64,000 nt of DNA from Neisseriaceae bacterium ESL0693. GTDB lineage: Bacteria > Pseudomonadota > Gammaproteobacteria > Burkholderiales > Neisseriaceae. Positions 33,730 through 37,117 of this stretch are shown here, one piece after another. The notes beneath the pieces were generated by a model. It made no database searches. It was not told the DNA's origin and saw only the letters and a list, made by a program, of their open reading frames with translations. The DNA is taken from contig JAQTIE010000008.1 in assembly GCA_029433475.1 (NCBI GenBank), positions 1 to 64,000 of the forward strand, in the 5' to 3' direction. Made by a program: the position numbers and the translations under genes. Every line of letters starts with the position of its first letter. The stretch's first letter is position 1.

Positions 33730-34025
33730 AGCTTTTCATCAATTTAATCGCTGGTCTATTTTCCGGTAATACCAGGAAAATCAATGACAAGAAAACAAAT
33801 CCTAAGTTTGATGACTATTTATATCAATTAAAACATTTGGTTGAAAATATCTTTGCACGTTTGAAACAGTTGGGTGAAATAGCGATTGAAAAATTGGCAT
33901 GCAATAATCAATCAATGTTGCGTATTGCATGCCTGTTTATTCAGTGCACGGCAAAATGCAGACACAGCCTAAATACTTTTCCAAGGTTATGGTCATTAAA
34001 ACAAAACGTTTACCATGAAAATTAA
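33730..34025 (+). pseudogene. IS5-family transposase remnant (C-terminal part)
   Basis: The plus strand encodes about 95 codons ending at 34025 that match the C-terminus of IS5-type DDE transposases: SGNTRKIN, then the signature KHLVENIFARLKQ with the catalytic Glu, then KLACNNQSMLRIACLFI, the equivalent of the usual KLARNFxSMLxIACxxI. The N-terminal two thirds, including the two Asp residues, are missing and I see no terminal inverted repeats. It is therefore a dead fragment. It marks the left side of the accessory stretch between panB and the deoxynucleoside kinase. Confidence 0.75.
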
Positions 34026-34379
34026 TCCTTATACAGGTCAAAGGGTTCGTCCGAAATCTCAAAACCGGAGATGATTTGCATCATTTCAGTAAAGCCTTAA
34101 AAGACTCTTGCATCAGCCATAAATACCGAATTCACTGAACAATTGCTTATAAAATGGCCACAATAGAAAAACATCTGACCAAGTATTTTTGAAGAGTGTT
34201 TACAGAATCATTGCTACCCTCAATTCACAAACACCAGTTCGGTACGGCCTAAATAGGGAAATGAGGATAATTTTGAACACCGTTCAAAAACAAATGTCGT
34301 TGCTGGCTTTTCCTGCACGATGAGCGTACTAATAATGCTTAGTCAGCTAATGCCTCATCTATCCATTTAATTTGTATTT
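34026..34379. other. non-coding stretch inside the accessory region
   Basis: About 350 nt between the transposase remnant and the broken short frame at 34380. No open frame or known RNA. It holds one palindrome, described separately. Probably debris of a mobile or phage-derived segment. Confidence 0.4.
34271..34289. repeat. palindrome TTTTGAAC-ACC-GTTCAAAA
   Basis: Perfect 8-bp arms around a 3-nt centre. Too AT-rich for a strong terminator; it looks more like a binding site for a dimeric repressor, as found in phage control regions. Nothing beyond its symmetry supports this. Confidence 0.35.
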
Positions 34380-34540: not shown

Positions 34541-34834
34541 CTACGGTTTTATATCACTATTCAGATTTAACCGTGCTTGTGCATGTACCATGAAATTTAA
34601 CAGTTCGGCCAGAATACAGACAGCCTGTAGTTTTTCCAAAGCTTTAGCTTCATACCAAGTTTTATCTTCTGCATGTACTGCACAAGCAGCAGCATAAGCA
34701 CCATGGCTGATGCCTTGCAAACTGTAAGACAGCTCACAAATCGCCTGATGAATGTCTTGGCTTAATTGTATTTTTTCCGCTTTATTTGTTTTAATTTCAA
34801 CAAGATTCAGAATTTTTTGAGTGTATGAGTACAT
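34541..34834 (-). CDS. 97-residue helical protein of the tandem-repeat cassette (intact copy)
   Basis: A 97-residue, mostly helical, soluble protein starting MYSYTQKILNLVEIKTNK and containing QLSQDIHQAICELSYSLQGI and ALEKLQAVCILAELLNF. GAGG lies seven bases before the ATG, itself embedded in GTACATCGATGTAC. It has no signal peptide, membrane span or motif I know. Its start is 14 nt after the stop of a 34-codon hydrophobic frame, so translation is probably coupled to that leader. Two further copies upstream (to 36099) are frameshifted. Function unknown; a phage or mobile-element origin is plausible because of the neighbouring transposase remnant. Confidence 0.6.
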   Translation of the reverse strand: MYSYTQKILNLVEIKTNKAEKIQLSQDIHQAICELSYSLQGISHGAYAAACAVHAEDKTWYEAKALEKLQAVCILAELLNFMVHAQARLNLNSDIKP

Positions 34835-34848
34835 CGATGTACCTCATT

Positions 34849-34953
34849 TTATGCCGATTCTGCTGATATAAGCAGGAGGCAGACAAGTGACAAGGTTGAA
34901 ACGCTGGACAAAACTAACCAGTAGGCATAAGCCTCCTTGCCACCGTCTACCAT
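34849..34953 (-). CDS. 34-residue hydrophobic peptide in the cassette leader
   Basis: A short frame reading MVDGGKEAYAYWLVLSSV and then TLSLVCLLLISAESA, that is, a charged or polar head, one membrane-spanning segment of about 20 residues and a polar tail. It ends 14 nt before the 97-residue gene. The two degenerate units upstream preserve the protein sequence around EAYAYWLV and STLSLVCLL before frameshifting. No good ribosome-binding site precedes the ATG; a perfect AAGGAGG lies inside the frame. It could be a leader peptide that controls the next gene or a small membrane toxin. Not previously known to me. Confidence 0.42.
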   Translation of the reverse strand: MVDGGKEAYAYWLVLSSVSTLSLVCLLLISAESA

Positions 34954-35053
34954 AGACAAGGCATAGACATAAAACCGCCAATCTTAGATTGACGGTATAT
35001 GCCGTTTTGTTTCAGCGTTTCAAAGCTGGTTACTAAAAAACAGTAACGTAGAT

Positions 35054-35082
35054 ATTATAGCGGTGAATATTCATTTAGTCCA
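35054..35082 (-). promoter_or_regulatory. probable sigma-70 promoter of the intact cassette
   Basis: Minus strand TGGACT and TATAAT (35054-35059) with a 17-nt spacer. The start point would leave a leader of about 210 nt before the 97-residue gene. The two other units have TATATT at this place (for example 35680-35685), so their promoters are weaker. Confidence 0.6.
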
Positions 35083-35200
35083 GTACGCTGTTGTCCTGAT
35101 AATATCTCTTATTATGTTTGTTTCTTGCGCTTCAAGAGGATTGTCAGGGCGATTCTGTTATCGTTAAACACAAAGCCTAAGGTTAATAAAATAAATCCCT

Positions 35201-35461
35201 TATTCAGATTTAACCGCACTTGTGCATGTACCATGAAATTTAACAGTTCAGCCAGATACAGATAGCCTGTAGTTTTTCCAAAGCTTTGGTTTCATGCCAG
35301 TTTTGATCTTCCGCATCTACTGCATAAGCAGCGGCAAAGCACCATGGCGCTGTAAGACAGCTCACAAATCGCCTGATGAATGTCCTGACTTAACTGTATT
35401 TTTCTGCTTTATTTTATTTAATTTCAACAAGATTCAGAATTTTTTGAGTGTATGAGTACAT
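35201..35461 (-). pseudogene. frameshifted copy of the 97-residue gene (unit 2)
   Basis: Aligns with the intact gene from its ATG (35461) to its end, but has four single-base deletions and the 13-nt deletion near ACCATGGCGCTG. No long frame survives. Confidence 0.7.
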
Positions 35462-35826
35462 TGATGTACCTCATTTTATGCCGATTCTGCTGATAAGACA
35501 GGAGGCAGACAAGTGACAAGGTTGAACAGCTGGACAAAACTAACCAGTAGGCATAGGCCTCCTCGCCACTGTCTACCATAGATAAGGCATAGGCATAAAG
35601 CCGTCAATACTTGATTGACGGTATATGCCGTTTTTTTTCAGCATTTCAAAGCTGATTACTAAAAAACAGTAACACAGATAATATAGCGGGGAATATTCAT
35701 TTAGTCCAGTACGCTGTTGTCCTGATAATATCTCTTATTATGTTTGTTTCTTGCGCTTCAAGAGGATTGTCAGGGCGATTCTGTTATCGTTAAACACAAA
35801 GCCTAAGGTTAATAAAATAAATCCCT
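35201..35826 (-). repeat. tandem cassette unit 2 (626 nt, degenerate)
   Basis: Direct repeat of unit 1, nearly identical by eye over its length. Single-base deletions at several A/T runs and a 13-nt deletion break the 97-codon frame. The central hairpin is even better here (TACCGTCAATCAAGTATTGACGG), showing compensating changes relative to unit 1. Confidence 0.85.
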
Positions 35827-36099
35827 TATTCAGATTTAACCGCACTTGTGCATGTACCATGAAATTTAACAGTTCAGCCAGATACAGATAGCCTGTAGTT
35901 TTTCCAAAGCTTTGGTTTCATGCCAGTTTTGATCTTCTGCATCTACTGCATAAGCAGCGGCAAAGCACCATGGCTGATGCTTTGCAGGCTGTAAGACAGC
36001 TCACAAATCGCCTGATGAATGTCCTGGCTTAACTGTATTTTTCTGCTTTATTTTATTTAATTTTAACAAGATTCAGAATTTTTGAGTATATGAGTACAT
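35827..36099 (-). pseudogene. frameshifted copy of the 97-residue gene (unit 3)
   Basis: Keeps the ATGGCTGATGC segment lost in unit 2 but shares its single-base deletions and has one more near the start. The shared lesions indicate that units 2 and 3 arose from a copy that was already inactive. A fusion frame at 36053-36244 across leader and gene is an artefact of these shifts. Confidence 0.7.
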
Positions 36100-36460
36100 T
36101 GATGTACCTCATTTTATGCCGATTCTGCTGATAAAGCAGGAGGCAGACAAGTGACAAGGTTGAAACGCTGGCGCAATTAACCAGTAGGCATAAGCCTCCT
36201 TGCCACTGTCTACCATAGATAAAGCATAGGCATAAAGCCATCAATACTTGATTGACGGTATATGCCGTTTTGTTTCAGCATTTCAAAGCTGATTACTAAA
36301 AAAACAATAACACAGATAATATAGCGGGGAATATTCATTTAGTCCAGTACGCTGTTGTCCTAATAATACCTTTTGTTATATTCGTTTCTTGCACTTCAGG
36401 CAGGTCATCAAGACAATTCTGTCATTGTTAACCACAAAACCAAAGTTAATAAAATAAATT
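35827..36460 (-). repeat. tandem cassette unit 3 (about 634 nt, degenerate)
   Basis: Third direct repeat, immediately next to unit 2. Its outer end has diverged from the other two after AATATAGCGGGGAATATTC, with CTTTTGTTATATTCG replacing the matching text. It lies just downstream of the deoxynucleoside kinase stop codon. Confidence 0.83.
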
Positions 36461-36484: not shown

Positions 36485-37117
36485 TTACTCACTCAAATTT
36501 AAATAATGTCGGCTGCCCTGCATATTGGCAATGGTGTCCAGCAATAATGCAAAGTGATCTTCATTATGAAGAAAATCCAGCTCATTGGTATTGGCGATCA
36601 GTAAAGGCGCATTCTGATACAAATGGAAAAAATGACGATACTGCTGATGTATTTGCGGCAAATAACCGGCAGGAAATAAATTGATATTCTGATCATTATG
36701 CTGGTGCAGGCGTTTGGTCAGCATGTCATTGCTGGCCTCCAGATAAATCACCAGATCAGGCACCGGATATTGTGGCATCACTCTTTGTTTAATCTGCCAA
36801 TACAAAGCCTGTTCATCATCGCGTAAAATAACCGGCGCATAAATCTGATCCCGCTCCAGTAAAAAATCCGCAATAATGCGACTGCGCCGCTCATCTTCTA
36901 CATGGATAATATCGACCGCTTCCGCATGACGCATTAAAAAATACATTTCCAATGCCAGACCATGATGAGCTGCATTCAGGTAAAATTGCTCCAGAAACGG
37001 ATTACTCTGCGGCGACTCAGACAATAAAAATGCATCAAAATGTTCGGCCAGCATTCGGCTTAATGCGGCCTTACCACTGCCAATCGAACCTTCCACCACA
37101 ATATAACGATAATCCAT
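36485..37117 (-). CDS. deoxynucleoside kinase (dNK family)
   Basis: A 210-residue nucleoside salvage kinase that transfers phosphate from ATP to a deoxynucleoside. The P loop is VEGSIGSGKAALS (about 8-20), and the lid and substrate residues include LERDQIYAPVIL near residue 88 and DLVIYLEASNDMLTKRL near 122, as in the dGK/dAK/TK2-like family. The P loop has Ala where Thr is usual (GKA, not GKT), within the known range. folK lies 35 nt upstream on the same strand, and the folK-dNK pairing is familiar in Neisseriaceae. Base preference unknown. Confidence 0.88.
   Translation of the reverse strand: MDYRYIVVEGSIGSGKAALSRMLAEHFDAFLLSESPQSNPFLEQFYLNAAHHGLALEMYFLMRHAEAVDIIHVEDERRSRIIADFLLERDQIYAPVILRDDEQALYWQIKQRVMPQYPVPDLVIYLEASNDMLTKRLHQHNDQNINLFPAGYLPQIHQQYRHFFHLYQNAPLLIANTNELDFLHNEDHFALLLDTIANMQGSRHYLNLSE

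Follow-up and report, generated by a model that had tools for sequence, protein, structure and literature searches.

The Triple Repeat in the Window

What are the three direct repeats that lie side by side in the genome of Neisseriaceae bacterium ESL0693, and which of their parts matters? The window, meaning the whole stretch of 64,000 nucleotides analysed here (positions 1 to 64,000 of contig JAQTIE010000008.1; GC content 45.0%), carries them at positions 34558-36460. The original prediction of such an array was correct. The repeats lie on the minus strand with a start-to-start spacing of 626 to 643 nucleotides, and their ungapped identities are 93.1% (units 1 and 2), 89.6% (units 1 and 3), and 93.7% (units 2 and 3). 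The predicted promoter-like site, TGGACT-17-TATAAT or TATATT, was found by motif scan on the minus strand at an equivalent position of each unit (35054-35082 in unit 1, where it reads TGGACT-17-TATAAT, 35680-35708 in unit 2, and 36318-36346 in unit 3). Since the promoter-like scan gave 11 sites where 8.1 are expected by chance, only the repeated position across the units counts. As predicted, one intact 97-codon ORF exists and it is in unit 1 (34541-34834, minus strand), reaching 17 nt past the start first given for the array, while the genes of units 2 and 3 are broken. These two units have at least two one-base deletions in common, which are absent from unit 1 and from the copy on contig C4. 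The shared deletions fit the proposed duplication after inactivation of one copy.

A transposase remnant adjoins the array at 33800-34030 (plus strand), according to the earlier reader. A deoxynucleoside-kinase-like protein is encoded at 36485-37117 (minus strand); its P-loop, GSIGSGKAAL, has an alanine after GK, where serine or threonine is usual. Below, locus names such as C23:168005 give the contig label and the position, and the label C4 denotes a contig, distinct from the C4 RNA.

The Leader is a C4 RNA

Phages P1 and P7 silence their icd-ant (immI) operon with an antisense RNA called C4. It was found that all three units match the C4 family RF01695 over its full length (positions 1-87) at 45.0-45.5 bits, with E values of about 1e-6. 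The matches, all on the minus strand, are at 34872-34957 in unit 1 (45.5 bits, E 6.4e-7), 35498-35583 in unit 2 (45.3 bits), and 36136-36220 in unit 3 (45.0 bits), the latter two with a broken gene behind them. Thus, the structured RNA leader foreseen for each unit exists, while the statement that the sequences match nothing known did not survive. The three scores lie barely at or above the Rfam cut-off of 45, a point against the model proposed below. The identity of the RNA and that of its cognate targets are solid.

Is this a local curiosity? In the whole genome (2.23 Mb, 25 contigs), RF01695 has 42 matches at E<=10, 35 of them above the cut-off. A model named R1, for which 24 of these 42 sequences served as input, has 45 matches at E<=0.01, namely 41 of the 42 and four new ones; it misses a prophage-like C4 RNA at C23:168005. 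The union is 46 C4-like RNAs. Unit 1 scores 86.2 bits with R1, its own sequence being among those that built the model. In contrast, none of 60 relatives has more than three C4 RNAs, and a match at E<=1e-5 was found in 25 of 61 genomes (the relatives and this one), with up to 59 candidates scored per genome. R1 matches 13 of the 14 genomes of the genus (this one included), with 0-3 C4 RNAs in each of the other members. In the class (143 genomes including this one), six have a C4 match and no other genome has more than three; scoring was limited to 28 candidates per genome, of which 27 were taken up here, so a very large set in another genome would have been noticed. Among 14 control genomes, none has a match above the RF01695 cut-off, and five of them give weak matches at E<=10. 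The C4-region DNA of C23:288168 is 78.6% identical over 82 nt to an Acinetobacter phage (E 2e-6) and 84.6% identical over 50 nt to P1 records (E 0.01).

The fold was assessed with 24 of the 42 sequences. In the three-helix structure (P1, P2, and P3), 98.5% of cells are paired and 12 of 25 pairs vary on both sides. Of five fold measures, four were reached by 0 of 500 shuffles and the fifth by one of 500. Related sequences may exceed such shuffles; however, all six slid controls are far lower, with at most 47% of cells paired. The only processing sign visible in the sequence is the GGT-like start of the C4 RNA.

The short membrane-type peptide of the original prediction is a frame running through the C4 RNA. 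In unit 1 it is a 45-aa frame with a TTG start at 34844-34981 (minus strand), and it has equivalents in all window units. Among 42 C4 RNA copies, 28 keep this frame open, and 0 of 42 combine an open frame with an in-frame start that has a Shine-Dalgarno-like motif before it. Because of this and of the overlap with the C4 RNA, the frame was judged not to be a gene, and a hydrophobic-peptide toxin gene was rejected.

Anatomy of the Cassettes

The main genes behind the C4 RNAs form three families, A, B, and C. In B and C cassettes, the order of parts is promoter-like site, a1b1, terminator-like hairpin, C4 RNA, a2b2, leader, and main gene. A reading of the flanks against the annotated P1 record (AF234172) indicated that a2b2 spans the ribosome site of the leader peptide. 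The best promoter-like site lies 121-160 nt before the C4 RNA at 31 of 42 loci. A terminator-like hairpin lies 8-85 nt before it at 32 of 42 loci, where 4.4 are expected, and P1 has one too.

A leader peptide overlapping the main gene was found at 23 loci. Stop of the leader and start of the main gene overlap by a constant amount within each family, +1 in 17 of 18 B cassettes and +5 in six of six C cassettes; in the 18th B cassette, C2:14878, the overlap is again +1, but the leader begins outside the search range. The icd-ant1 overlap of P1 measures 4 nt (AF234172). The similarity among B copies extends from about -155 to about +475 to +600 relative to the C4 RNA start. The cassette is a discrete unit of about 630-755 bp. 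In summary, B and C cassettes have two features of a P1-type operon, cognate a1b1 and a2b2 and a leader/main overlap. The third, an antirepressor main gene, was not found in A, B, or C; a Bro-N protein stands only behind C23:168005, where the C4 RNA is prophage-like.

C4 units also occur in tandem elsewhere (L053:2600-5000 on contig C2, L056:2700-5300 on C22, and L049:2250-3800 on C23), several of them without their own leader and gene.

Most Loops Match Their Targets

Do the C4 RNAs fit their own flanks? All 42 loci together have 29 distinct loops. The hairpin-3 loop and the 3′ linker fit their own flanks, upstream as well as downstream, better than permuted flanks (p=1/5001 in each of four tests), and the own flank was best or tied for 11, 12, 17, and 12 of the 29 loops. 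I then scored the linker (a′) and the loop (b′) jointly at 26 loci, which were picked by hand after viewing the sequences (the 23 loci at which a leader precedes a B or C gene, plus C2:12750, C23:168005, and C23:430582). The own a2b2 was best or tied at 22 loci and uniquely best at 18, the exceptions being C2:12750, C2:238641, C22:152857, and C25:90021. The own a1b1 was also best or tied at 22 loci, with a unique best at 17 and four exceptions. Seen from the target, the own C4 RNA is the unique best regulator for 13 of 26 a2b2 and 17 of 26 a1b1 sites. A whole-molecule duplex test, which is crude, gave z values of -1.2 to -1.6 at three B or C loci. Since the own a2b2 was best or tied at 22 of 26 loci and four failed, most of the tested cassettes are insulated and some are not.

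Two groups were scored apart: 12 copies without the usual leader and gene (including C2:14878, where the gene is more distant downstream) and four family-A copies. The four RNAs found only by R1 are in neither set. The 12 copies fit their own downstream stretch poorly, with scores from 0 to 27. Two of them, C2:13397 and C23:300285, have loops from tandem runs that fit cassettes elsewhere as a cognate C4 RNA would, with a score of 38.

The Main Proteins are Conserved

No A, B, or C protein has a Pfam or NCBIfam match reaching the cut-off, and PHROGs gave nothing better than E 0.023. No match to an antirepressor family was found for the main proteins, and profile comparison revealed no homology among A, B, and C. 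Family B has 20 matches here, one of which is a 16-residue piece, and none in the 60 other genomes searched. Family C has nine members here and distant relatives in eight of 13 congeners. R1 was run on 17 of the 19 congener C places, and a C4-like match lies about 240-320 nt upstream in six. This link between congener C genes and C4 (6 of 17, with two matches below E 0.01 and two at E 0.08) is suggestive only.

Two kinds of C4 locus recur in congeners (L038 and L113-L133). In one, the C4 RNA precedes a leader and a 118-119-aa protein, here called family D, which has no match in Pfam or PADLOC. In the other, the leader behind it is short and contains an LRLFPP motif, and no main gene is visible. 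No relatives of family B were found in IMG/VR or GTDB contigs, and none of families A, C, and D in IMG/VR; because these contig scans relied on patterns of short peptides, they can miss distant relatives.

The pN/pS ratio is 0.116 for B84, 0.242 for B88, and 0.090 for C, with a pS of about 0.4 between copies. This set has nine B84-type, six B88-type, and six C sequences, and it omits the truncated, odd-length, and displaced copies C5:128987, C3:885, C22:152857, and C23:430582 as well as B and C matches found later. In contrast, the leaders have a ratio of 0.75 (16 leaders in six equal-length groups, whose ratios range from 0.41 to 1.15). The main proteins are thus under purifying selection while the leaders are nearly free, which argues that the main protein is the product that matters and the leader is a switch.

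Family A and the Window Copy

Family A is present here as the window array and a copy at C4:5437; a further copy, at C4:32727, contains a stop, and contig C2 ends in a piece of the gene. Broken remnants are found in six congeners; R1 found no C4 RNA at the six remnant loci scored with it. The flanks of the remnants in relatives have no PanB or kinase match, so a shared site is not seen within about 1.5 kb.

Unit 1 keeps the promoter-like site, a1b1, the hairpin, the C4 RNA, and an intact, constrained gene, and its relative at C4:5725 is alike. The a1/b1 target of unit 1 (TTGAAACG .. ACAAAAC; 35004-35023, minus strand, counted by hand) is complementary to its own C4 RNA with a joint score of 35, and that of the C4:5725 copy scores 37. 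The hairpin scan placed the terminator-like hairpin of unit 1 at 34974-34996 (minus strand), between a1b1 and the C4 RNA. Units 2 and 3 fit their own C4 RNA poorly (22 and 25.5); in unit 2, a weak a1b1-like target lies at 35635-35686 (minus strand), with 25.5 bits for RF03163 against a cut-off of 46.7. Both a1b1 and the gene have drifted in these units. The array in the window is a single family-A cassette present three times, with units 2 and 3 decaying.

Between the C4 RNA and the gene, unit 1 has a 37-nt spacer (34835-34871, minus strand) with a ribosome-site-like GAGGT. No a2/b2 target was recognised downstream of the family-A C4 RNA (scores of 20.5 in unit 1 and 21 at C4:5725), and no leader gene was found at either place. 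The duplex of C4 RNA and leader region was no better than shuffles in family A (z 0.1 and 0.0), although this test is weak. Family A may be controlled only via a1b1 and the hairpin, by attenuation, or control may have been lost.

In one comparison, of unit 1 with C4:5437, the pN/pS ratio is 0.21. The 97-aa protein has no match in Pfam or NCBIfam, two weak matches in PHROG (best E 0.046), and a weak match to Tin in PADLOC (E 0.019). No relatives were found in phages, plasmids, or GTDB contigs, the contig scans again being made with short peptide patterns. AlphaFold gave an all-helix model of the lone protein with a mean pLDDT of 59.9, too weak for a fold search.

CRISPR Arrays and Toxin Fragments Nearby

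Among the 100 of 107 places listed, a 28-nt CRISPR repeat makes up 11 segments of arrays, on contigs C2, C4, and C25. The repeats are presumably of the type I-F kind. Among the places listed, eight of the 11 segments have an A or B cassette no more than 1 kb away (a rough binomial of 3e-9 if 36 cassette clusters are assumed, with the segments not independent because the arrays are related). No repeat lies on the contig of the window (C24) among the same 100 of 107 places. A single Cas1 match is located away from the arrays, at C22:186146. The arrays are many, short, and dispersed between other genes (L139:161-14372 and L140:3249-18635 on contig C4, L141:2645-6958 on C25, and both L142:11419-11865 and L143:8203-8710 on C2), and at L140:16018-18635 two segments flank a B cassette with its C4 RNA. 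At L063:1416-1925 (C2), three tandem 135-nt repeats coding a YLLVFVRQTNAM-type frame adjoin a B cassette and a CRISPR array.

Ten flanking proteins were scanned. Two have a PT-VENN pre-toxin domain near B cassettes (contigs C8 and C10), one has a haemagglutinin repeat near a C cassette (C9), two have sub-cut-off DUF6853 matches, and five have none. CdiA/FHA-type toxin or haemagglutinin fragments occur near C4 cassettes in L055, L059, and L066 (by Pfam) and in L060 and L067 (by eye only); small DUF6853-like genes, again below the cut-off, lie in L055 and L066. Other cassettes lie between genes read by eye as housekeeping.

A Model and Its Alternatives

I propose, with a probability of roughly 0.8, that the units are cassette copies akin to the c4-icd-ant (immI) operon of P1-like phages and that the C4 RNA probably silences the adjoining gene. 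The regulatory design is well supported by the RNA identity, the fold, the cognate complementarity, the gene overlap, and the selection described above. Family A without a2b2 and leader, the loci and set-apart copies that fit their own targets poorly, the limited number of targets with a unique best own C4 RNA, the modest duplex z values, and the main proteins' lack of an antirepressor match count against it. I infer that a single promoter would give an RNA from which a C4 RNA of about 77 nt would be cut, at an RNase P site placed by analogy with P1. The 3′ linker (a′) and the hairpin-3 loop (b′) would pair with a2/b2 behind the C4 RNA and cover the ribosome site of the leader. Since the leader stop overlaps the main-gene start, blocking the leader would silence the main gene too. 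In P1, blocked translation leads to Rho-dependent termination. Repression by C4 is likely here, by homology with P1. The a1b1 target and the terminator-like hairpin before the C4 RNA may let it limit its own transcript. Loops and targets have changed together, with the result that most tested C4 RNAs fit their own targets best. The product that is kept is the main protein in A, B, and C, and the leader serves mainly as a translation switch. The best guess for the main proteins is that they are small effectors acting on the cell or on mobile elements, normally off.

Could the main protein be a toxin and the C4 RNA its antitoxin, in many largely insulated modules of a type I-like kind? This is possible, though not the favoured reading. 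An antisense RNA would lie over a ribosome site ahead of a small gene, there are many copies with distinct specificities, and the neighbours include PT-VENN and haemagglutinin-repeat fragments and CRISPR arrays. Moreover, the P1 Icd protein blocks cell division, according to PMC8198154. However, no toxin family matches the main proteins, the weak Tin match of family A being all that PADLOC offers; the P1 Ant protein is an antirepressor, not a toxin; and the leaders, which occupy the Icd position, evolve almost freely.

It is rather unlikely that the cassettes are a selfish, non-autonomous repeat family spread by recombination with little use to the host. The discrete unit, the tandem arrays, decayed copies, and dispersed sites, and the absence of family B from the 60 relatives searched would suit such a family. 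Against it, constrained main proteins (pN/pS 0.09-0.24 at a pS of about 0.4) and matched changes of loop and target indicate long functional upkeep.

It is distinctly unlikely that the C4 copies are a repertoire of trans-acting immunity RNAs, each shutting off the c4-type operon of any invading phage or plasmid that shares its specificity. C4 prevents superinfection in P1 and P7 (PMC5320573), and the 12 copies without the usual leader and gene, two of which fit other cassettes, are what such a repertoire might contain. However, RNA immunity has no need of main proteins under purifying selection, and pattern scans found no A, B, C, or D relative in IMG/VR. The original reading, an ldr-like membrane-peptide toxin or silent cassettes for gene conversion, was suggested by the tandem layout and the hydrophobic frame and is now highly improbable, with that frame lying on the C4 RNA and in none of 42 copies both open and led by a start with such a ribosome-site motif. 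Nothing seen points to a silent-cassette array serving gene conversion.

A phage-type cassette, probably silenced by C4, remains the preferred reading. A bolder form of it, which I regard as improbable, is that a phage immunity operon has turned into a large family of largely insulated RNA-silenced effectors, some beside arrays that would be worth keeping (of CRISPR or contact toxins), in which loss or disturbance of C4 would release the protein, so that the cassettes would be guard modules. With CRISPR arrays and toxin fragments as neighbours, a role in guarding or defence can be put to the test. A single cell also offers, in its roughly twenty natural pairs of antisense RNA and cognate target, a test bed for how specificities diverge without cross-talk. 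The three small protein families have no relatives outside the genus in these searches, and their upkeep demands explanation.

Comparison with Known Systems

For the RNA part, the analysis ended at a phage module of known function, the immI operon of P1 and P7, a result that the original prediction had listed as evidence against itself; for the protein no such module was found. B and C cassettes share with immI (c4-icd-ant1) the order of parts, a close C4 sequence, and the rule by which the a′ linker and the b′ loop pair. They differ in that the loci here are chromosomal with 46 C4 copies, short and fast-evolving leaders stand in place of Icd, and the main proteins are not ANT or Bro-N; family A furthermore lacks a2b2 and the leader. 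PMC8546580 and PMC8198154 cover the P1 biology, and C4 was described as a motif in many bacteria by Weinberg and colleagues (PMC2864571). In the open-licence literature, no paper on a C4 antisense RNA in Neisseria was found, and titles gave nothing related on antisense RNA in Snodgrassella.

Type I toxin-antitoxin loci have an antisense RNA that blocks translation of a small gene, and they occur in tandem copies. The cassettes resemble them in a predicted antisense block of a small gene and in tandem copies. Thus, the likeness to an antisense-controlled layout, drawn at the outset, held, while the membrane peptide as its product did not. Unlike in type I loci, the RNA comes from the same strand as its target and presumably from the same promoter. 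CreTA RNA guards of CRISPR-Cas are likewise RNA-controlled modules tied to CRISPR, with one reported for type I-F in Acinetobacter; here, however, the RNA is C4, the regulated product is a protein, and there is no sign of Cas effector use.

The nearest parallel to the expansion itself is Acinetobacter baumannii, for which PMC5320573 gives 21 C4-like sRNAs with a variable loop. Its Group 1 sRNAs are, as here, many per genome, phage-derived, and variable in the target loop. They differ in that they are described there as sRNAs with proposed targets, whereas cognate targets, coupled genes, and three conserved protein families are found here. To the C4 expansion known from A. baumannii, the present genome adds one in which targets can be seen and the proteins are conserved.
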